IMG/VR virus record: IMGVR_UViG_3300037156_000434
Location: 1-55,224 of that record
Strand: one strand, 5' to 3'
From: a virus
Length of the DNA stretch: 55,224 bases
A program made the translations under genes and the position numbers. A model generated the notes under the pieces. It saw nothing but the letters and a program-made list of their open reading frames with translations. It had not been told where the DNA came from and made no database searches. Numbering within the stretch: position 1 is the first letter of the stretch; the number at the start of each line of letters is the position of its first letter. Shown here piece by piece: positions 1-55,224 of this stretch.

Positions 1-1116
1 CTACCCGGTGATTTCACTGATATTCAGGTCCGGGACTGCTTCGGACCAAATGATTTCATCGTGGTCCCGCTGGTAGTTTTTGGTCATTCCCTCGCTTGCA
101 TGGCCTGCGATTTTTTGCCCGTCCTTTCCGGCTTTTTTATACAGGTGCAACGACAGTGCCCGCACTTCGTGAAAGCCTGGCATCTCCTCTTCCTTCCATC
201 CCGCGTAGCAGTTCGCCACCTCCCTGACCTCCTTGAATGCTCGAGTCAAATACCGCTCTTCAACCTTCGTCCAGTGGTCCTTTGTCTGTGCCTGCTTCTG
301 TTTCAACCGATCCGGCTTGCGGTGCACCAGGTACGGCGACACAACATCGTCTCGGCACCGGCTAATGACGGCCTGCAACTCGGGCGTAACCCTGAATCGA
401 ATCCAGGCCGCGTCTGTCGCCTTGGCCGTCTTCTTCTGCACGACGTAGAGGAATCCTTCCCTAACCCCGTCAAAGCGCATGTCCAGGATGTCAGTGCGAC
501 GCTGGGCGGTGATCAGTGCCAGGTCGATTGCATTCTGTAGCCAGGCGGGCGATTTCTCCCTAATCGCTTTCAGGCCATCGACGGTATGCCGCTTGCGCTG
601 TTTCTTCTCGATGCGATTGATGGTGCTGGCTGCCGGGTTGTCCGGGCACAGGCCTTTAGCTGCTGCGTGGTTGAAAATGTCGATTAGCAGCGCCCGGGAC
701 TGGTTCGCCGAGCGCGGCGTAATGGCGTCCAGCATCTCCGCAATCATGCGGATCGTGATCTGGTCGACCGCTTTGCCTTCGAACTGCTTCCGAAAGCGGC
801 GGAAGTGAACGGCATAAAGGCCCAGAGTCCCTTTTGCCAGCTCGCGCGGCGGGAGCACCTCGCGCTCGTAGGTATCGAGGAATGTGGTGAACGACTCCGA
901 CGATGCGGAGAGAACGGCGCCGACCAGGTCTGCGCCGCGCATGAACTCTAGGTTCAGTTGCTTGGCGGCATCGATCGCTTTGATACGGTCGCCGCCGAAC
1001 TGGAACCACTTCCCGTCGGTAGGCCGGCGGTAGCGGTATGTCGACCGTCTTGCATCGAAGTACAGATTCTGCGGGAGGCTCTTATTCGCCTTGTTCCGCG
1101 GCCTAGGTACCATCAT
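1..1116 (-). CDS. int: Tyrosine recombinase / phage integrase
   Basis: A 371-residue site-specific recombinase that would integrate and, with the adjacent excisionase-like protein, excise the prophage. The N-terminal 60 residues are basic and arm-binding-like, residues about 70-170 form a core-binding SAM-like domain, and the C-terminal half is catalytic. The visible active-site set is R206 (AQRRTDI), a Lys near 228-229, H316 and R319 (HEVR), H339 (AGHAS) and nucleophile Y348 (KNYQRD), so the enzyme looks intact. The start is supported by AAGGAG four bases upstream. Its ATG overlaps the stop of the upstream gene (ATGA), so the two are translationally coupled. It is unrelated in sequence style to the truncated integrase at 50067-50857. 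Confidence 0.96.
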   Translation of the reverse strand: MMVPRPRNKANKSLPQNLYFDARRSTYRYRRPTDGKWFQFGGDRIKAIDAAKQLNLEFMRGADLVGAVLSASSESFTTFLDTYEREVLPPRELAKGTLGLYAVHFRRFRKQFEGKAVDQITIRMIAEMLDAITPRSANQSRALLIDIFNHAAAKGLCPDNPAASTINRIEKKQRKRHTVDGLKAIREKSPAWLQNAIDLALITAQRRTDILDMRFDGVREGFLYVVQKKTAKATDAAWIRFRVTPELQAVISRCRDDVVSPYLVHRKPDRLKQKQAQTKDHWTKVEERYLTRAFKEVREVANCYAGWKEEEMPGFHEVRALSLHLYKKAGKDGQKIAGHASEGMTKNYQRDHDEIIWSEAVPDLNISEITG

Positions 1117-6634: not shown

Positions 6635-7227
6635 ACAAAACGTTGAATATTCCTGCACAGCAGGCGCTACCGGTTGAGCATATCAACGAGGCCCTGTTCG
6701 AGAAAAGTAACGACGCGGCGCTCCTGCTGAAGTGTTTCGAGGTGGTGAAGGACGCACTGGAGGTGATTGCCGAGCCTGAATACTCCATTCAAAGGGAGGA
6801 TGACACTCACATTGACCTATACCGCGCGTTCTACGCGCTCAAGGTTCTTTTCCGGCGCCGCACTGGACACGATGCTGCCGAAGTCGCGCAAGACCACCAA
6901 GATGCAATGACGCGGCATCTGCTGGAGGGTGCGCCGCGCCCCGACAACAAAATCCCTGTCGTCGTGTACCCGACCGAGTGCCTGCCTGACAAAGCATTCG
7001 ACGGCCTGACCGATCAGCAGCTGGCGTGCGCGGCGTTCAACTACAGCGACCGTGTTCGACTTCTGATCATGGATCACTCACCGCATGCTTTGGCGCTGGA
7101 CGAGGCTCGGACTTTTTCCATTGATTCCACAACCGCGCTCCGCCTTCTGGTCTTGCGCCTGTCTGGTGGCTCAGTGGAAGCCATGGGTGCCCGAATGGCG
7201 CACAAGCCAGGGGAGACGCTGCAATGA
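6631..7227 (+). CDS. Hypothetical early phage protein
   Basis: A 198-residue soluble protein with a helical N-terminal half (EALFEKSNDAALLLKCFEVV) and a second region with FDGLTDQQLACAAFNYSDRV. It has no signal peptide, no TM segment and no recognised catalytic motif. It overlaps both neighbours by 4 bases and belongs to the same operon as the antirepressor and the replication genes, so an early role is likely. Family not recognised. Confidence 0.65.
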   Translation: MNKTLNIPAQQALPVEHINEALFEKSNDAALLLKCFEVVKDALEVIAEPEYSIQREDDTHIDLYRAFYALKVLFRRRTGHDAAEVAQDHQDAMTRHLLEGAPRPDNKIPVVVYPTECLPDKAFDGLTDQQLACAAFNYSDRVRLLIMDHSPHALALDEARTFSIDSTTALRLLVLRLSGGSVEAMGARMAHKPGETLQ

Positions 7228-7460
7228 CTACTCCCCTGGAATCAACTACCGGAATCCCCGTAGTTAGACCTGCCACCGCCGAAGTGGTAGCCGGTCCCTG
7301 GCCCAGCTATTCCAACTGCCGCCACCTGCCTGAGCGCGACCGCTGGGAGGTCTACGCCATGGCCAAGGCCTCACGAGGCGCGCTGGAGGATCGCGGCGTG
7401 GTCATGACCGAGAGCTATGACGACTTCATCCGCCGCGTGACGCGGGAGCTGGATATATGA
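7224..7460 (+). CDS. Small hypothetical early phage protein
   Basis: A 78-residue protein with a Pro-rich N-terminus followed by ERDRWEVYAMAKASRGALED and a C-terminal helix (DDFIRRVTRELDI). It overlaps the previous gene and the replication initiator by 4 bases each, so it would be made in step with the replication proteins. No domain recognised. Confidence 0.6.
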   Translation: MTTPLESTTGIPVVRPATAEVVAGPWPSYSNCRHLPERDRWEVYAMAKASRGALEDRGVVMTESYDDFIRRVTRELDI

Positions 7461-8263
7461 GTGTTCAAGCCATGTCCTGGGCGCTCACCCAGCAGGTTGT
7501 CACCGATTCGCATACGCGTCATGTGCTGCTGTGCCTGGCCAACTACGCCGATCAGTCCGGGCGCGCTGCATTCCCTGCCGTTTCGAGTCTTGCGCTTGAT
7601 ACCGGTCTGGCGCCGCGCACAGTCCAATACCGGCTTCGTGAGTTGGAGTCGATTGGCTTGATCAAGCGTGGAAACCAGGCCGTTGCCGCCGCGTATATCT
7701 CCCAGCGCGATCGTGTTCCGGTCTGCTACGACCTCGACCTTTCACGGGGTGCACCGGATGCACCCCGCTCCGAACGGGGTGCACCTGACGACGCAACGGG
7801 GTGCACGCCAGAACAGAACGGGGTGCACGCCACGACCGAGCGGGGTGCACCGGGTGCACCCAATCCACCCACTAACCACCCATTAACCATCCTTAACCAA
7901 AAAGAATGCGCCAAGGCACCTGAGAAGGCCGGAAAGATCAAGGCTCAAAAGTTCGATCCTTTGACTGCCAAACCGGCAAACGCATCGGAACAAGCCTGGG
8001 CCGACTTCTGCGAAATGCGCAAGGCAAAGCGTGCACCGCTGACCCTCCGAGCATGTGAACTGATCGCCAAGAAACTGGCCAACCATCCAGAGCCCGACGC
8101 CGTGCTGGACAAGTCCACCACCAGCAGTTGGTCGGACATCTACCCCGAATCGGTGTTGCCAGGCACTGGCGCCAAAAATGGCAAGCCATCCGCTTACAAC
8201 AACTTGCCCCAGCACACAGACGACATGTATTCGCAGGAGGCTCCCAATGGCCCAGCGTTCTAA
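7457..8263 (+). CDS. Phage replication initiator, lambda O-like (HTH_36)
   Basis: A 268-residue protein. Residues about 10-75 form a winged HTH typical of phage replication proteins: DSHTRHVLLCLANYADQSGR, then LALDTGLAPRTVQYRLRELE and SIGLIKR. Residues about 95-140 form a low-complexity linker (repeats of RGAPDAP/GVHATT) whose coding DNA is the iteron array described separately. A C-terminal helical domain (ANASEQAWADFCEMRKAKRA) follows and probably contacts the helicase loader. Position directly before DnaC- and DnaB-like genes fits a role in origin recognition and helicase loading, as for lambda O. Confidence 0.85.
   Translation: MSVQAMSWALTQQVVTDSHTRHVLLCLANYADQSGRAAFPAVSSLALDTGLAPRTVQYRLRELESIGLIKRGNQAVAAAYISQRDRVPVCYDLDLSRGAPDAPRSERGAPDDATGCTPEQNGVHATTERGAPGAPNPPTNHPLTILNQKECAKAPEKAGKIKAQKFDPLTAKPANASEQAWADFCEMRKAKRAPLTLRACELIAKKLANHPEPDAVLDKSTTSSWSDIYPESVLPGTGAKNGKPSAYNNLPQHTDDMYSQEAPNGPAF
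7744..7905 (+). other. Putative phage replication origin inside the initiator gene
   Basis: Five direct copies of CGGGGTGCAC start at 7745, 7775, 7797, 7819 and 7841; the last four are spaced exactly 22 bp apart, two helical turns. One inverted copy (TGCACCCCG, 7759-7767) and one shortened copy (CGGGTGCACC, 7851-7860) lie among them. Directly downstream (7861-7905) is a repeated CCACCCA/TTAACCA tract ending in AACCAAAAAGAA, which is much less GC-rich and could be the unwinding element. The layout is that of the lambda origin: iterons within the initiator gene followed by a helically unstable tract. Confidence 0.75.
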
Positions 8264-9077
8264 TTTCCGCCGCCAGCCTGAACTGCGCACGTTCTCTGGC
8301 AATTGCCCGCACCATCCTGAAGTCGAGTCTCGCACCGAGGTAGAACAGTTCGACGGATCGATGCAGGTCCGCCCGTGCAAGAAATGCCAGTTCCAAGGCC
8401 TGCGCGTTGCGGAGCCTGGCAGCGAAGCTCATACCCTGGCCGTGGCTCAGGTTGCGGCTGAACGCCTCAACAGCGCGCTCGTCGGCTCGGGTATCTCGCC
8501 TCGATTCTCGGATAGCACCTTCGCTACCTACCGCGCCACCGCCCCGGAGATGGTCGGAGCGCTTGAAAAGTGCAAGGGCTATGCCGATAACTTTGGCGAG
8601 CACTTCGCCGCCGGCCGCAATCTGCTCCTGACAGGCAATGTCGGTACAGGCAAGACGCATCTGGCCTGCAGCATTGTTCGTCAAGTCATCGGGCTGAACG
8701 CGATCGCGGTGATCACTACCGCCGCCGAGATTATCAGAGTGTTCAAGCGCTCCATGGTCCGCGACTCAGGCTACACCGAAGGCGATGTGATCAATGAGCT
8801 GGCGAGCTTCGACCTGCTGGTCATTGATGAAGTCGGCGCCCAGGCGGGTACCCAATACGAGCTGGCGGTGCTGCATGAGGTGATCGACAAGCGCTACAAC
8901 CTGATCCGCCCTACCGTGGTGGTCTCCAATCTGCATCCGACTTCGAAGCCGGACGGGGAAGGGCGCTGCGCCGCCAGTCTGGAGCAATACATCGGCGCTC
9001 GGGCACTGGATCGTCTGCGCGAAAACGGCGCGTTGCTGGTCGGCTTCACCTGGGCTTCGGCACGGGGGCGCACATGA
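8247..9077 (+). CDS. DnaC-like helicase loader (AAA+ ATPase)
   Basis: A 276-residue protein. An N-terminal segment carries CPHH and CKKC, a likely zinc-binding pair. The AAA+ core follows with Walker A GNVGTGKTH (about 130-138), Walker B LLVIDE (about 190-195) and a sensor-like VVVSNLHP near 238. This is the IstB/DnaC group that loads DnaB-type helicases. The start at 8247 has GCAGGAGG upstream and overlaps the initiator gene by 17 bases; the longer frame from 8178 has no such site. It precedes the helicase gene with a 4-base overlap. Confidence 0.9.
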   Translation: MAQRSNFRRQPELRTFSGNCPHHPEVESRTEVEQFDGSMQVRPCKKCQFQGLRVAEPGSEAHTLAVAQVAAERLNSALVGSGISPRFSDSTFATYRATAPEMVGALEKCKGYADNFGEHFAAGRNLLLTGNVGTGKTHLACSIVRQVIGLNAIAVITTAAEIIRVFKRSMVRDSGYTEGDVINELASFDLLVIDEVGAQAGTQYELAVLHEVIDKRYNLIRPTVVVSNLHPTSKPDGEGRCAASLEQYIGARALDRLRENGALLVGFTWASARGRT

Positions 9078-10447
9078 ACGACTTTCGCGAGCTGTACAGC
9101 GACGAAGCGGAACACGCGCTGCTGGGCTCTCTGATGCTGAATGGCGACCTGTTTGATTCGATCACGGCCAGTGTGACCACCGCTGACTTCCATGATCCGG
9201 AAAACGCAGCGCTGTTCCAGGTAATGCTCGACCTGCACGCAACTGGCGCACCGGTTGACCCGGTCACCCTTCACGACTTTAGGCCATATCTTCCCAGTGG
9301 CGGGGCGACCATTGCCTACGCCGGCGAACTGGCCAAAAACACGCCCAGCACGGCCAACTGGAAGGCTTACGCGCGGACAGTCACGGAGCGAGCAGTACTT
9401 CGTCGCCTAGTGCAGGCAGCCGATGCCGTGCGCGAATCGGCCAACGAGAACAGGCCAGTGGCTGAGATCATCGCAGGCGCCCAGCAGGCGATGGCAGATC
9501 TTCGCGACCTGGACACCGGCGAGCCGGATTACAAACGCATGGACGAAGTGGTGACGCGAAACATCGACATCATCGATGCCAAGTTCAACGGCGCCGTTCA
9601 GTCGGGGCTCTCCACTGGCCTGGTAGATCTGGACAAGTTAATCCGCGGTCTGCGCAAAAAAACCGTGACCATCATCGCCGGCCTGCCCGGGAGCGGTAAG
9701 ACCACCCTCGGCCTGCAGATCGCCCAGCACATTGCCTGCTCGGGACTTGGCGTTGGCATGGTGTTCTCATTGGAGATGCCCGAGGAAGAGCTGGCCAACC
9801 GCGCACTAGCTTCCCTGGGCAGCGTAGATCTGCAGGTTCTCGATAACGGCCAACTGCAGGATGACGACTGGCCGCGCCTGACATCAGCTGTCAACAAGAT
9901 CCTCGATAGGCCTCTGTACGTCAGCGACAAGTCCGGCCTTACCGTCGCGCGGATCAGGAGCATTTGCCGCCAGGTCAAGCGCAAACACGGCCTCGACGTG
10001 GTGGTGATCGACTACATCGGCCTGATCGGATCAGATGGCAAGGCGTTCAACCGTACCGCCGAGCTCGGCAAGATATCGACCGGGATCGTCAATATCGCCA
10101 AGGAACTGGAGGTGCCAGTGATCCTGTTGGCCCAGCTAAACCGTGACTCGACCAAACGTCCGGGCAAGAAACCGATCGCTTCCGACCTGCGCGACTCCGG
10201 ACAGATCGAGGCTGATGCCCACTGCATCATCCTTGTCCATCGGGACATGGATGACGAGCAGGGCCAGAACGGTGTTACCGAGCTGATCATGCCCAAGTGC
10301 AGGCACGCACCTGTTGGTTCGTGTGTTGTTCAGCAGCAGGGCAAGTTTGCCCGTTTCGTAAATTTCGCAGGCCGCGAGCCCAGCCAAGAAGAGGTTGAAA
10401 TCAGTCGCCCCTTCGCCAGTCAGTACAGGGGGAGAAAGAACGCATGA
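9074..10447 (+). CDS. dnaB: DnaB-like replicative helicase
   Basis: A 457-residue RecA-fold hexameric helicase that would unwind DNA at the phage fork. The N-terminal domain (EAEHALLGSLMLNGDLFDSI, residues 11-30) is the primase-interacting DnaB_N. The C-terminal motor has Walker A AGLPGSGKTT (about 202-211), the H1a-like SLEMPEEEL block, Walker B VVVIDYIGLI and an arginine-finger/DNA-loop region around LRDSGQIEADA. Length matches bacterial DnaB. It forms a replication cassette with the O-like initiator and the DnaC-like loader. Confidence 0.95.
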   Translation: MNDFRELYSDEAEHALLGSLMLNGDLFDSITASVTTADFHDPENAALFQVMLDLHATGAPVDPVTLHDFRPYLPSGGATIAYAGELAKNTPSTANWKAYARTVTERAVLRRLVQAADAVRESANENRPVAEIIAGAQQAMADLRDLDTGEPDYKRMDEVVTRNIDIIDAKFNGAVQSGLSTGLVDLDKLIRGLRKKTVTIIAGLPGSGKTTLGLQIAQHIACSGLGVGMVFSLEMPEEELANRALASLGSVDLQVLDNGQLQDDDWPRLTSAVNKILDRPLYVSDKSGLTVARIRSICRQVKRKHGLDVVVIDYIGLIGSDGKAFNRTAELGKISTGIVNIAKELEVPVILLAQLNRDSTKRPGKKPIASDLRDSGQIEADAHCIILVHRDMDDEQGQNGVTELIMPKCRHAPVGSCVVQQQGKFARFVNFAGREPSQEEVEISRPFASQYRGRKNA

Positions 10448-45237: not shown

Positions 45238-46152
45238 TCAGGACCCGAGCTGAGGCTTGCTCGTGTAGGCGGAAATCGCAAGCTGGGCTACTGAAACGGG
45301 CAGCGCCTTTTGTTTGACCTTCGTGCTGAGGTACGCTTCAAACTTCCCAGCACCTATGTAAACCTCTCGAAACCAGCGCCGAAACTCTCCCAACGCCAAT
45401 TCTGGGTAGCAATTGGACTCCTGAGGATTCGACAACGCCTGAGGAAAGTAGTCAGGGTAATTGTGGTCATACTTGATTCTTGCGCCGTAGAAGTTCTCGA
45501 GTTCAGCAGCTTTCCAGTGCCTCGCCCAGTGGCTTCCAACGCTTCCATCTGGGACAAATGTACTGTCGATGTGTATTCCGCTTTGTCCGAGATGGACCAC
45601 CATATCGGCGATCTCTTTGAATATTCCGAAATAACCAGCTGGCACCGCGTTGTAGACTAGTGACATACGATCATGGAACTGCTTCCACTGCACCGGCACA
45701 TGGTTACTCGGATCGTAACCTACCTGGGTGTAGATGAAGTCTTGCAACGCCTTTCCAGCAAGAAGCCGGAAATTCATTAGTGCTTCGTCTTTTTTGTTAA
45801 TCCCGGCGTCAAACGCATAATATTCAAGGACGGCTAGGCATACGGCGTCGGGCCAAGCGTGGACAATGCCTGTTTTGTTGTCTGGTATCGCGGTAAACGG
45901 AACTTCATATACTTGACCATGTGTAGCAAGAATTTCCTGTATACGGCTTACAGTAGGCTTCGTCGTATTCCAGTCCGCCCCCACGCTCTGAATGACCGAG
46001 TGGTGCACGCCGCAAAGGCGGGCGAGACCGCGACCGTTCAAAAAGGGAGTGCCGTCAGATAGCACTCCCATTCCGATTCCGTCGATCTCTGTCTGCTTGT
46101 CTATTCCGAGAGGAATTTGAGGAGGGGTGGCGGGTGCGGAAGGCGTTTTCAT
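45238..46152 (-). CDS. KilA-N-like / BstA-like protein, putative phage-exclusion gene
   Basis: A 304-residue protein. Residues about 25-135 look like a KilA-N-type DNA-binding domain (GVLSDGTPFLNGRGLARLCG, then VHAWPDAVCLAVLEYYAFDA), followed by NFRLLAGKALQDFIYTQVGY. The C-terminal part (FYGARIKYDHNYPDYFPQAL, LGEFRRWFREVYIGAGKFEA) is not a known enzyme. The overall layout fits the BstA family of prophage abortive-infection proteins, but I identify it from memory of the pattern only. AGGGA precedes the ATG at 46152, and a good promoter lies upstream. Phage remnants on its right suggest it came with a prophage. Confidence 0.5.
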   Translation of the reverse strand: MKTPSAPATPPQIPLGIDKQTEIDGIGMGVLSDGTPFLNGRGLARLCGVHHSVIQSVGADWNTTKPTVSRIQEILATHGQVYEVPFTAIPDNKTGIVHAWPDAVCLAVLEYYAFDAGINKKDEALMNFRLLAGKALQDFIYTQVGYDPSNHVPVQWKQFHDRMSLVYNAVPAGYFGIFKEIADMVVHLGQSGIHIDSTFVPDGSVGSHWARHWKAAELENFYGARIKYDHNYPDYFPQALSNPQESNCYPELALGEFRRWFREVYIGAGKFEAYLSTKVKQKALPVSVAQLAISAYTSKPQLGS

Positions 46153-46175
46153 GGTTAAGTCCCTGAATCCATTGA

Positions 46176-46203
46176 TATATACCCTGGCGGGCGTCCACTT
46201 CAA
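46176..46203 (-). promoter_or_regulatory. Sigma70-type promoter for the BstA-like gene
   Basis: On the minus strand TTGAAG (46203-46198), 16 bases, TATATA (46181-46176), 24 bases before the ATG. GAATGATGGCCATTC (46207-46221), an imperfect inverted repeat, lies just upstream of the -35 and may bind a regulator. This is a constitutive-looking promoter, as expected for a gene expressed in the lysogen. Confidence 0.55.
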
Positions 46204-46876: not shown

Positions 46877-47527
46877 CTAGAGCGCGTCTTCGATGTCTAA
46901 ATCAGGCCACTCGAGGGGGGCATGCACAGTCTTTGCAAGGAACATCCCGTGAACAGCTTGGACACCAGGTAGCCCCGAAAGAATGCTTTTTGCCGCTGCA
47001 AAGCTCGCTCCCCGAGTTATAACGTCGTCCACCACGATGACATACGGGCGTAGGGGCGCCTGAAGATAAGTCCTGTCTAGTTGCAGTGTTGCGGCCAAGC
47101 CTTCTGGATCAAGCCTATTGCCCTGATGCTGAGCATCCCTAGCTGCTGACTGAGCAAGCAGCGGACGGACGTCAATGCCAGCTTTTCGTTGAGCTACATA
47201 CTTCATAACTTGAAGCATCCGGTCATCATGCTCGGGGTGCCCAACAGGTTTCGAGCATGGTATCGGAACGAATGTGACGTCCGTTGCACATACGTCCAGA
47301 TTCAACCCTGCCGAGGTCAGAATGACCTCACCCCAATACGCAACGGCTCTTAGCTTCCAGTGGAGTTGAGCAGGGGGGGCATTAGGACTTTTTTTAAGAT
47401 TGAAAATTTGCTGATTTGTTTCGCTGGCACCGAAACCCCCACCAGATGTGTATTCACCGTAATGAGCACAGCTATCATCGACTGACAAAAACCTAAAGTT
47501 TGCGGGATCAAGAATTGAGAGTCGCAT
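46877..47527 (-). CDS. Phosphoribosyltransferase-fold protein, ShosT-like toxin candidate
   Basis: A 216-residue protein. The C-terminal half is a type I PRTase, with the PRPP loop VIVVDDVITRGASFAAAK (acidic pair at about 167-168). The N-terminal half has FVPIPCSKPVGHPEHDDRML, a ComF-like flexible loop. It lies directly after a DprA-like gene, with a 20-bp overlap. A PRTase toxin with a DprA-like partner is the layout of the ShosTA toxin-antitoxin/defence system, and ComF proper would not be paired in this way. The ATG at 47527 is preferred to the adjacent TTG. Confidence 0.75.
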   Translation of the reverse strand: MRLSILDPANFRFLSVDDSCAHYGEYTSGGGFGASETNQQIFNLKKSPNAPPAQLHWKLRAVAYWGEVILTSAGLNLDVCATDVTFVPIPCSKPVGHPEHDDRMLQVMKYVAQRKAGIDVRPLLAQSAARDAQHQGNRLDPEGLAATLQLDRTYLQAPLRPYVIVVDDVITRGASFAAAKSILSGLPGVQAVHGMFLAKTVHAPLEWPDLDIEDAL

Positions 47528-48446
47528 CAATATTCAGCTCTTCCATTAGATGAGATACATTCTTGATTCTTACGGCCCCAAGCTTTTCAAAGCGTTGTGG
47601 CCAAGTCAGCTCTGGCTTTCGAAAGCAGCTTTCTAAAATGAATAGTTTGCGGCCTTGTGCGAGAGCCGCCCGGGCCTGTACCAATGTGCCTGAGGTGTTT
47701 CCCGCCTCGACGATGATGGTCGCCTGGGTGATGGCAGACATCGTTACGTTTCGGGCTGGAAAGAAAAGCCGATTCGTCCGGTAATTCTGATTTTGGTATC
47801 GAAGAAAAGGGACTTGAGATATGACGAGAAACCGCTTAGCGATTTCCTCCTGGAGGGATCGGTTTTCTTTTGGGTAGCTCTCAGTTAGTGGCGTGCCGAT
47901 GACTGCGATAGTCTTTCCACCGGCTGCCATTGCAGCCGTGTGGGCCGCTGTGTCAATGCCCTTGGCAAGCCCAGAAACGATTGTATAGCCGGCTCTGGAG
48001 AGGGAGTGGGCAATTCGACCCGCATTGAGTGCTCCCTCATCGCTTGGTGAACGTGTCCCGACGATCGCTACGGACGGCGTTTCTACTAGTTCCCAGTTGC
48101 CTTCGTAGTAAAGAACTTCTACGGGATGGTCTGCGTCGCGCAACTTTTTGGGATATTCGCCGGCGCCGTTAACGCGAATTCCAATAGACCGCAGTCGTTC
48201 CTCACCAAGGAGCTCGATAAGCATGGCCCGTACGCGTGACACTTCTTCCTCCGGGACGAGCTCGGAGGGGAGCGCCCCAGGATTAGTCCGGAAAAGCTCT
48301 GCCAGGTTGGCGAACCACGCTCCTTGCCCCATCCATAGAGACTCGTAAGCGCACATCTCGTTTTGGAGGGTGATGGGAGGTGACTCGAACAGATCTTCGA
48401 AGCTGAAGCTATTTTTCTTCATATGATATGCGGTATCGACTCGCAT
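47508..48446 (-). CDS. DprA-like protein, ShosA-like antitoxin candidate
   Basis: A 312-residue protein with the DprA Rossmann-like fold: VAIVGTRSPSDEGALNAGRI, TIVSGLAKGIDTAAHTAAMA, VIGTPLTESYPKENRSLQEE and a modified RTNRLFFPARNVTMSAITQA. An N-terminal helical part of about 110 residues replaces the usual SAM domain, and the C-terminal winged helix of housekeeping DprA is missing or short. It overlaps the PRTase gene. Start 48446 is the first ATG; a second ATG at 48422 also lacks a clear ribosome site. Confidence 0.78.
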   Translation of the reverse strand: MRVDTAYHMKKNSFSFEDLFESPPITLQNEMCAYESLWMGQGAWFANLAELFRTNPGALPSELVPEEEVSRVRAMLIELLGEERLRSIGIRVNGAGEYPKKLRDADHPVEVLYYEGNWELVETPSVAIVGTRSPSDEGALNAGRIAHSLSRAGYTIVSGLAKGIDTAAHTAAMAAGGKTIAVIGTPLTESYPKENRSLQEEIAKRFLVISQVPFLRYQNQNYRTNRLFFPARNVTMSAITQATIIVEAGNTSGTLVQARAALAQGRKLFILESCFRKPELTWPQRFEKLGAVRIKNVSHLMEELNIDATLNS

Positions 48447-50066: not shown

Positions 50067-50857
50067 TCATCCCGATTTCCTCCTCAAGATAGTCAGCGCT
50101 GGCCCGCGAGAGTCAGTTGCCGATACTTTGTTCGCAGCCTCAATCAGGTGCTGCAGCTCCGAGGTAGAATAGTGGCTCGTAATGCTGCCGTTCTTGTGCC
50201 CCAACAGTGCTTTCCGATCTTCCTCTGTCACGCCCGCTGCACGTAGCCTTCTGCCAAAGGTGTGCTTCAGGTCGTGAATCCGGAATGCCCTGAACCCTGG
50301 ATGCGCCGGCGACTGGTTGGCTACCTCCCACTTGTCCGCCGCGCGCTTCCTGGCCTTCCTCCAGGCGGAGTCGTTCATTCTGTCCATGGTAGTGGCCCCA
50401 TATTGATCTGGCTGTCCGTAGGGGAACACCAAGTCTTTATGCAGGCCGCGCTGCTTGTCGATTATATTCATCGCCACTCTATTCAAGATCACCAGGCGTT
50501 CATCGCCGTTCTTTACCCCAGCTTTATCACTTCGCCCACCGAATCCGGCAGGTATCAAAAACACGCTGGTGTTCAGATCCGGCACCCGTATTTCCCACTC
50601 CCATCGTAACTTGCACACTTCCTGTTCCCGGCACCCCGTGTTCACCTTATAGAGGGCCATCCTCAACAGGTGATCCGGCAGTTCAGGGAACAGAATCGCC
50701 TGCTCTTCCCAGGACATCGGGTAGGGTTTCCGGGCAGACCTCTTTTCCTCAAGCATCGATATCATCGGCACGCTCTCCAGCCACGGCCGCTTTTCAGCAT
50801 CGCGCCACTTGTGGTGGCATAGGTTCAAAATCCTGACGACGCGCTGCAGTAGGGCGC
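50067..50857 (-). pseudogene. N-terminally truncated integrase of the second element
   Basis: About 260 codons of a tyrosine recombinase. The catalytic half is whole: GCREQEVCKLRW (first Arg), RIHDLKHTFGRRLRAAGV (His and Arg/Lys box), LLGHKNGSITSHYS (His and nucleophile Tyr). The N-terminal arm- and core-binding domains are cut: ALLQRVVRILNLCHHKWRDA is the first recognisable stretch, and the frame then meets lysis-gene DNA at about 50850. The first in-frame start would be an internal TTG at 50828. It differs from the prophage 1 integrase. Its location 69 bp from the tRNA-Pro fragment fits integration into that tRNA. Confidence 0.85.
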
Positions 50858-53107: not shown

Positions 53108-53601
53108 GTTATGGGTAAGCAGTCCTTTTTGGCGCTTTTGTCTTGCTCATCGCTGCCGTCGATTTTGTGACCAGCGCATTGGGGTAGGGGTTTTCCTAAC
53201 CGCTGTTTCAACATTCCTACACTTAAACAGGGGTTGTCGGATGGTTGCGATGATGTCAATGAGCCATTGTTTTGCTAGAAGCTCGATCACCGGTCCACCA
53301 GCGGCTACAGGTTATGAGTGGGAGACAAGCAGTGATCGAGCGGACTCCAACCATTGTGCAGCTTTGGCTCCGCTTCCCGTGAGGGGTGGCAGCCTGCTAT
53401 GGGGGGCTTTCTGTTGACTAAACGTGATGCCCAGACTCATGTCTTAAGGCGCACTCCAGTAAATTGGATGACTGTTGAGAGCGCCACTCAAGCTAGGGCA
53501 CTAGCAGTCGATAAAGAGTGATGTCGATACGACATCATTCGATCTTTGCATTAAAAATCTAAAAGTCCGAGCCAAGGATGCTCCACCAGTCGAGCATACA
53601 T
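53108..53601. promoter_or_regulatory. Non-coding region upstream of the chemoreceptor, with palindrome
   Basis: No gene seen in 494 bases. It should contain the right end of the mobile DNA and the chemoreceptor promoter. TGATGTCG-ATA-CGACATCA (53519-53537) is a perfect 8-bp inverted repeat 65 bp before the ATG. It lacks a T-tail and so suits an operator. CTTTGCATTAAAAATCTAAAA nearby is the AT-rich promoter-like segment. I found no second copy of the tRNA-Pro 3' end here. Confidence 0.45.
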
Positions 53602-55224
53602 ATGTATAGCAAACTCAGTATTTCCCAAAAGCTCTACCTCAGCTTTGCCGCCATCGTGTTTCTGTTGGGCATCCTTGTCATCAGCGCATACCGTGGGTTT
53701 GGACAGGTCGACAGTGCGATCAGCAGCAACGTCCACAGTTATCGCGTGTTAAGTCAGTCCAAGATAGCCCTTGAACAGTTGATCAATATCGAGACCGGTA
53801 TGCGCGGCTTCGTCATCACCGGCAAGGACAACTTTCTTGAGCCCCAGATTGCCGGTGAAAGTACATTCTCTAGCAGTCTTGCGACGCTCAAAGAACTGAC
53901 GATTGATAACGCCGAGCAGCAGAAACGGCTTGCCTCATTGGAGCAGCTACAAAAGCGGTGGCTGGACGAAGACGTTCATTCGATCATCGCGCAACGGCGT
54001 GAGCTGACGCAAAGCGGCACCTCCGGTGATTCGCTGAATCAGCGCATAAGCAGCGGCGCAGACAAAGCCAAAATGGATGGCATGCGCGGCATTATTGCAG
54101 AGCTATCGCAGGCAGAAGACGTTCTGTTGGCAAGCCGCACTCAAGAGATGAACAACGCCAAGGATCGCGCGATTACGATTCTGGTGGCCGGTGGTTTGAT
54201 TGCGGCCTTTTTGGCGGTCATCCTCGCCTATGCTTTAGGCCGCACCACGCGCGCCCGCCTGCAAGTGGCTATAGACGCGGCGACAGCGGTTGCTGAAGGT
54301 AGATTGGACACCGTGATTGATACCAGCAGCAGCGATGAACTGCCCAGGGCATTTGATCGCATGCAAACGCGCCTGCGGGAAATGATTCAGCAGATCAATC
54401 AAGCTGCCAGTCAATTGATTGAATCCGTACAGAAGATTTCAGGAGCTTCGGAGCAGCTTTCCAGCGCGGTAAACGAACAATCAAACTCGGCATCCGCGAT
54501 GGCGGCCACGGTTGAAGAACTTACGGTAAGTATCAACCATGTATCCAACAACGCAGGCGAGGCCGGCGGACTCGCTCATCGCTCTGGTCAGCAATCAATA
54601 GATGGATCCACTGTCATCCAGAACACACTGACCAGCATGAATGGTATCGCGAAGACCGTGCAGCATGCCTCAACCAAAGTGTCAGAGTTGGGCCACCATT
54701 CCGAGCAGATATCTACCATTATCAGCGTTATTCAAGGTATCGCAGATCAAACCAATCTCCTCGCCCTCAACGCTGCCATTGAGGCTGCTCGAGCGGGTGA
54801 ACAAGGCCGCGGCTTTGCAGTAGTCGCCGACGAGGTACGGTTGCTCGCGCAGAACACTGGTAAATCTACTAAGGAAATTGCCGGCATGATCGACAAGATC
54901 CAGCTCGGAGTCCGTGAGACTGTGGAGAGTATGCGCAGCGGAGTGATGGAAGTTAGCCAGGGTGTGGAAATGGCGGAGTCAGCTGGCAAGGCTATTACCG
55001 AAATTAGTCAAAGCTCTGGCCAAGTGCTCGAGGTGGTCGAACAGATTTCTTTGGCCTTGCGTGAGCAAACAGCTGCAAGTCAGGACGTCGCACGTAACGT
55101 CGAACGATCTGCACAGATGGCTGAGCAAAATAATCAGTCTGTGCAAGATCTTCTGCGCACCAGCAACGATTTGAATCAGTTGGCGATAGGACTTAAACAG
55201 GAAGTAGGTCGGTTTCGTCTGTAA
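53602..55224 (+). CDS. Methyl-accepting chemotaxis protein with CHASE3-type sensor
   Basis: A 540-residue chemoreceptor, complete to its stop at the window end. TM1 is at about residues 10-32 ([20 protein letters not shown]). The periplasmic CHASE3-like domain has [20 protein letters not shown], and TM2 is at about 190-210 ([20 protein letters not shown]). HAMP follows, then the cytoplasmic signalling coiled coil with the invariant tip [38 protein letters not shown]. It should couple to CheA/CheW. An ATG at 53578 would add 8 residues but has its AAGG box immediately next to it; the ATG at 53602 fits the family N-terminus better. Host gene that marks the right edge of the mobile DNA. Confidence 0.95.

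Follow-up and report, generated by a model that had tools for sequence, protein, structure and literature searches.

The iteron array and the AACC-repeat tail found within the gene of an O-like initiator very probably constitute the replication origin of a temperate Pseudomonas phage, placed inside its own initiator gene. A preliminary description had proposed an origin at this site of the window, i.e., the whole 55,224-base stretch of viral DNA analysed here, and this reading is now supported by the retention of the repeats, their 22-bp phase, and the co-variation between the iterons and the recognition helix of the initiator. The nearest relatives of the contig, an IMG/VR viral record, are Pseudomonas prophages.

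The initiator matches the PHROG families 678 (4e-49) and 1032 (2e-43), both "replication initiation (O-like)", and its Pfam matches are limited to HTH_36 (5e-8) and HTH_24. A search of PDB sequences returned nothing useful. AlphaFold models the N-terminal winged helix with confidence and predicts a C-terminal helical domain, and the iterons and the tail lie in the codons of the stretch predicted to be disordered (residues 99-134 and 140-163, pLDDT <50). The gene is preceded by an anti-repressor gene and two small phage genes, is followed by genes for a helicase loader and a helicase (Table 1), and overlaps its neighbours, like part of a continuous operon.

Table 1. Features of the putative origin and of the surrounding replication genes
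Feature	Position	Strand	Remarks
Phage replication initiator gene, 268 aa	7457..8263	+	N-terminal winged helix, disordered linker, C-terminal helical domain
HTH recognition helix, codons 53-66	7613..7654	+	AlphaFold model; co-variation with iterons best for segments starting at 50-56
Iteron 1, CGGGGTGCAC	7745..7754	+	Reading frame 0
Inverted iteron ATGCACCCCG, one mismatch	7758..7767	-	23-bp near-palindrome together with iteron 1
Iteron 2	7775..7784	+	Frame 0
Iteron 3	7797..7806	+	Frame 1; 22 bp past iteron 2
Iteron 4	7819..7828	+	Frame 2; 22 bp past iteron 3
Iteron 5	7841..7850	+	Frame 0; 22 bp past iteron 4
Terminal inverted iteron GGTGCACCC	7853..7861	-	The "shortened copy" of the preliminary description
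Putative unwinding tract, three AACC (7874, 7885, 7895)	7862..7906	+	Lowest duplex stability of the region; G-poor top strand; AACC spacing 11 and 10 bp
DnaC-like helicase loader	8247..9077	+	IstB_IS21 2e-13; phrog_50 3e-61
DnaB-like replicative helicase	9074..10447	+	DnaB_C 2e-75; phrog_19 3e-107

Elsewhere on the contig, a homolog of BstA, a prophage-encoded abortive-infection protein (45238-46203, minus strand; PADLOC 4e-115), lies beside a ShosTA-type defence pair made of adjacent ShosT-like (2e-39) and ShosA/DprA-like (7e-97) genes (46877-48446, minus strand). The contig may include host DNA next to the prophage, or be a junction of two elements, because it has an integrase-like ORF at its left edge (1-1116, minus strand), an integrase-family gene near its right end (50067-50828, minus strand), and a chemotaxis-receptor-like ORF (53578-55224).

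The iteron array

The iteron CGGGGTGCAC is present in five direct copies (7745-7850) whose starts are separated by 30, 22, 22 and 22 bp, so that the last four are exactly in phase, and there are no further copies on either strand of the contig. This agrees with the preliminary description, including the additional inverted copy. The description also listed a shortened copy, GGGTGCACC (7852-7860), which is better read as the inverted iteron GGTGCACCC on the minus strand, because the core GGTGCACC is self-complementary. For the same reason, the pairs at the two ends (7745-7767 and 7841-7861) are both inverted and flank the direct 22-bp array. The terminal inverted copy was also seen in most relatives.

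Chance is excluded as the origin of these repeats. When the peptide was recoded synonymously 20,000 times, the number of exact CGGGGTGCAC copies never exceeded two (five are observed), two was also the maximum in 300 Markov-simulated windows, and no repeated 10-mers stood out in 150-nt stretches outside the array. In four Pseudomonas host genomes (~26 Mb), the sole cluster of CGGGGTGCAC is the prophage array, in the three genomes that have one; away from it, the 10-mer occurs only singly.

Conservation of the layout and of the tail across the initiator family

We analysed 132 distinct O-like initiator genes from viral contigs, phage records, and Pseudomonas genomes, calling an array when its score exceeded the largest of 40 synonymous recodings. 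Most of these genes carry an internal array above this null, in which 22 bp is the prevailing spacing (21-23 bp among the distant members); no array exceeded it in seven distant homologs (L030, L035, L046, L155, L159, L168, and L178). Scans with single proteins (L156 and L033) retrieved one locus apiece. The layout is mostly kept across the ~130 genes while the sequence of the iteron diverges: the cores of the clades include GTGCAC, GTGCAA, GTGCAG, GTGTCAC, and GGTGACA, among others, and the iterons themselves are CGGGGTGCAC, -GCAA, -GCAG, CGGGGTGTCAC, GGGTGACA, CCGGACA, and others.

The divergence of the iterons is associated with that of the protein. In 41 representatives with GGGGTG-type arrays, the variable bases of the iteron co-vary with the recognition helix once corrected for the remainder of the N-domain (partial Mantel r 0.45, permutation p 2e-4; kinship among sequences inflates tests of this type and weakens the p value). 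The comparison of segments along the protein serves as an internal control, and among 73 ten-residue segments scanned those starting at residues 50-56 scored highest. All four representatives with TGTCA iterons, one of them from a distant clade, have an arginine at position 58, where a tyrosine is usual in initiators with TGCAN iterons. At the level of sequence, this co-variation supports, without proving, the idea that the initiator binds its own iterons.

The array is followed by the less GC-rich TTAACCA tract noticed in the preliminary description. It has a single G in the 45 nt of the top strand and includes the only AACC triplet so spaced in the contig. The least stable 40-bp duplex of positions 7201-9000 starts at 7867 (99.9th percentile within 5-12 kb). 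The same signal recurs in the family: in 52 clusters of initiators, the 60 nt after the array contain on average 2.35 AACC, compared with 0.04 GGTT on the same strand and with 0.26 AACC per 60 nt elsewhere in the same genes. These motifs use all three reading frames (44, 48, and 30 occurrences), their commonest spacing is 11, and the self-similarity of the tail is maximal at lag 11 (z 15). Of 51 clusters, 37 have a pair of AACC 10-13 nt apart and none has one on the opposite strand; the frequency in control windows is 12 of 1,218. The full 11-bp consensus, found on one strand, is (t/g)GAACC[A/G]TC[A/C]; where a cluster was scored negative, a variant 11-mer such as AATCCGTCCTCT or CTATCCGTCAT is often present. 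The tail repeat accompanies unrelated iterons in phages of Pseudomonas, Bordetella, Arthrobacter, and Gordonia; GAACC[A/G]TC repeats are present in Pseudomonas MD8 and Gordonia DatBoi, and GAACCAGTCA in SfV and Vibrio D290.

We also searched IMG/VR with a DNA-only pattern of the tail, GAACCRTCAN{1,5}AACCRTCAN{1,5}AACC, which retrieved at least 80 loci. Among the matches listed, 60 of 74 ORFs (at least 100 aa) match PHROG replication initiation families and 58 of 74 have HTH_36; of the 62 loci that had enough upstream DNA once simple-repeat and collagen-like matches were removed by eye, 61 have an array directly upstream of the tail that outscores 95% of synonymous recodings. The iterons of these arrays include many unrelated sequences, and their spacing nearest the tail is 21-23 bp. 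Since the pattern was derived from initiator genes, the recovery of close relatives is expected, and the informative part of the search is the arrays with unrelated iterons. A scan of 199 Pseudomonas genomes (~1.2 Gb) gave no occurrence of the strict pattern, so its chance background is negligible; its strictness also excludes the majority of Pseudomonas prophages, in which the tail has variants such as TTAACCA. Eight matches on unrelated viral contigs (L222, L223, L250, L252, L258, L271, L276, and L282) are long AACCGG/AACCGT hexamer-like arrays and are not initiator genes. At two initiator-type loci (L227 and L257), the upstream repeats themselves include the tail sequence GAACCATCAGATT, as if iteron and tail had merged.

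The AACC repeat is probably a melting element and perhaps, by analogy with other origins, a strand-specific binding site. On balance, and with modest confidence, we favour the view that HTH_36-type origins share an 11-bp one-strand repeat, about one helical turn past the last iteron, conserved between phages of Proteobacteria and Actinobacteria while iterons and recognition helix co-diverge; it would be a phage counterpart of the DnaA-trio and of the RK2 DUE repeats, read as single strand. It would be read either by a conserved region of the initiator or by a replication factor shared among hosts, because the loader neighbours differ among carriers: tail-bearing initiators stand next to DnaC-like, lambda P-like, or primase/helicase genes, or none of these. 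The open-access literature that we searched held no description of the tail motif, of HTH_36 phage origins, or of a conserved tail beside co-diverging iterons and recognition helices. The element thus seems previously undescribed, although priority is unproven given that the search covered open-access text.

The array could instead be an operator for the HTH protein or for another phage regulator of the replication operon, with replication starting elsewhere. HTH_36 is a generic DNA-binding domain, the nearest solved folds in a fold search were winged-helix regulators of the MarR type (weak matches only), the sites contain palindromes, and autoregulation is compatible with origin function. However, the array lies ~290 nt inside the gene, past its start, the gene overlaps its neighbours, and an operator has no need for a constrained, 11-bp phased, easily melted tract recurring beside unrelated iterons. 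We therefore regard this alternative as very unlikely.

RNA, protein, and DNA as targets of selection

Still less probable is a role at the RNA level, with the repeats folding into an element of the operon's transcript. The RNA of positions 7740-7910 does fold better than shuffled sequences (z -4.7), through the inverted copies at its ends, but such a fold arises because the iterons are self-complementary, and it is not general: z is below -2 in 24 of 42 diverse arrays, several direct-repeat arrays show none, and there is no Rfam match. We rejected the RNA element on these grounds.

The pattern of substitution points to the DNA itself. Since a step of 22 bp is not divisible by 3, consecutive iterons fall in different frames, and iterons 2-5 are translated as RGAP, TGCT, GVHA, and RGAP. 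In 13 close relatives, third-codon (synonymous) sites vary at 0 of 16 positions in the iterons and 0 of 14 in the tail, whereas the HTH region has 71 variable sites out of 85 (Fisher p 9e-11 and 1e-9, respectively). When all codon positions are considered, one of 50 varies in the iterons and three of 44 in the tail, whereas the spacers that separate the iterons vary at 23 of 47. The synonymous sites are frozen, so the constraint acts on DNA, and at the level of sequence comparison this shows that iterons and tail are both maintained as such. Selection on a repeated peptide of the linker, with the DNA repeat as a by-product, is the least credible explanation and was rejected: RGAP and NHQ/EPS peptides do recur in the linkers of relatives, but the encoded peptide changes with the frame in which a copy is read, synonymous sites do not vary, disorder is predicted for the linker, and the 20,000 recodings never regenerate the repeats.

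The preliminary description had suggested that the sequence of the linker is dictated by the DNA, and had advised an alignment of related initiators: these genes keep the repeats in 22-bp phase, with no change at any synonymous site within them. It had also held that finding the same initiator without the repeats would speak against an origin; there is no such case among relatives with at least 60% HTH identity. One initiator (L020) has an additional 11-bp tail repeat at codons ~135-142, which shifts the frame and truncates the protein to 142 aa, as expected of a repeat that evolves as DNA within a gene.

Comparison with known origins and proposed mechanism

An origin located within the initiator gene is already known from phage lambda. 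The origins of lambda (gene O) and of Stx phages resemble that of the window in this location, in the presence of a helicase-recruiting gene next to it, and in having at least four iterons about two helical turns apart (their starts are separated by 20, 24, and 23 bp in lambda) with an adjoining AT-rich unwinding tract. The analogy with lambda made in the preliminary description therefore holds for the layout. It fails for the protein family and for the tail element: lambda O belongs to Phage_rep_O (PF04492), which the HTH_36 initiator of the window does not match; lambda iterons are 18-bp inverted-repeat units, whereas those of the window have ~10 bp; and the purine-rich tract of lambda carries ACAAAAGACA-like repeats but lacks the AACC repeat, whereas the iterons of the window are followed by AACC repeats and by no ACAAAAGACA-like purine-rich tract. 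Lambda also obtains the host DnaB via P, whereas this phage encodes its own DnaC-like loader and DnaB. In lambda, mEpX1, Gifsy-1, and KO-TP1, all with Phage_rep_O-type initiators, inspection by eye found ACAAAAGACA-like repeats where the tail would sit, and no AACC tail. Each of the two classes of initiators thus seems to be associated with an unwinding tract of its own, irrespective of the helicase loader. The O proteins of lambda and Stx phages bind AT-rich single strands (PMC7466680).

Among the closest known counterparts are HTH_36 initiators of PHROGs 678, 1032, 391, and 270, e.g., in phages JBD68 (Pseudomonas), Andrew (Arthrobacter), and DatBoi (Gordonia), which share the domain, the in-gene array, and the AACC tail, and differ in the sequence and copy number of the iterons. 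Their annotation goes no further than initiator or hypothetical protein, and the records fetched list no origin feature. The origins of iteron plasmids (RK2 oriV, F) also place iterons beside a DUE with repeated elements; their winged-helix Rep proteins bind the iterons and one strand of the opened DUE, every repeat of which is needed (PMC4081077). Such binding suggests a role for the one-strand AACC repeat, which we propose, by analogy, to be a similar contact, even if the RK2 repeats are 13-mers of another sequence and the window has no Rep_3 initiator. The DnaA-trio of bacterial oriC is likewise a short strand-specific repeat beside the double-strand sites of the initiator (PMC10797057), but its unit is 3 instead of 11 bp, its sequence differs, and it serves the AAA+ protein DnaA, to which class the initiator of the window does not belong. 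A DnaA-assisted origin was rejected, as there is no consensus DnaA box near the array (the only TTWTNCACA of the contig is at 42367).

The best-supported model, considering the DNA-level constraint on iterons and tail, the layout kept across diverse initiators, the co-variation of helix and iteron, and the neighbourhood of replication genes, is lambda-like. We infer that replication initiates at this site, where the recognition helix in the N-terminal winged-helix domain of the initiator would mediate binding to the CGGGGTGCAC iterons that lie within the initiator's own gene. The 22-bp phase, equivalent to two helical turns, would place the bound initiators on one face of the DNA, with inverted pairs closing the array at both ends. 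The nucleoprotein complex might then open the adjoining 45-bp AT-richer tract, the 11-bp AACC repeats serving as melting element and perhaps as a strand-specific contact for the initiator or another part of the replisome, and the DnaC-like loader would put DnaB onto the exposed strand. The cumulative GC skew has a shallow minimum near 9-10 kb, which is confounded by the direction of transcription and is not diagnostic.

Few phage origins have been located beyond the lambdoid and T-phage models. The grammar of this family (iterons 21-23 bp apart, a terminal inverted iteron, and 11-bp AACC repeats, all within the initiator gene) can flag origins in thousands of uncultured phages by sequence alone. 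It also provides a natural series of pairs of recognition helices and DNA sites with which to study the specificity of HTH_36, and the conserved tail makes the melting of DNA by a winged-helix initiator, and the choice of the strand given to the helicase, directly testable.
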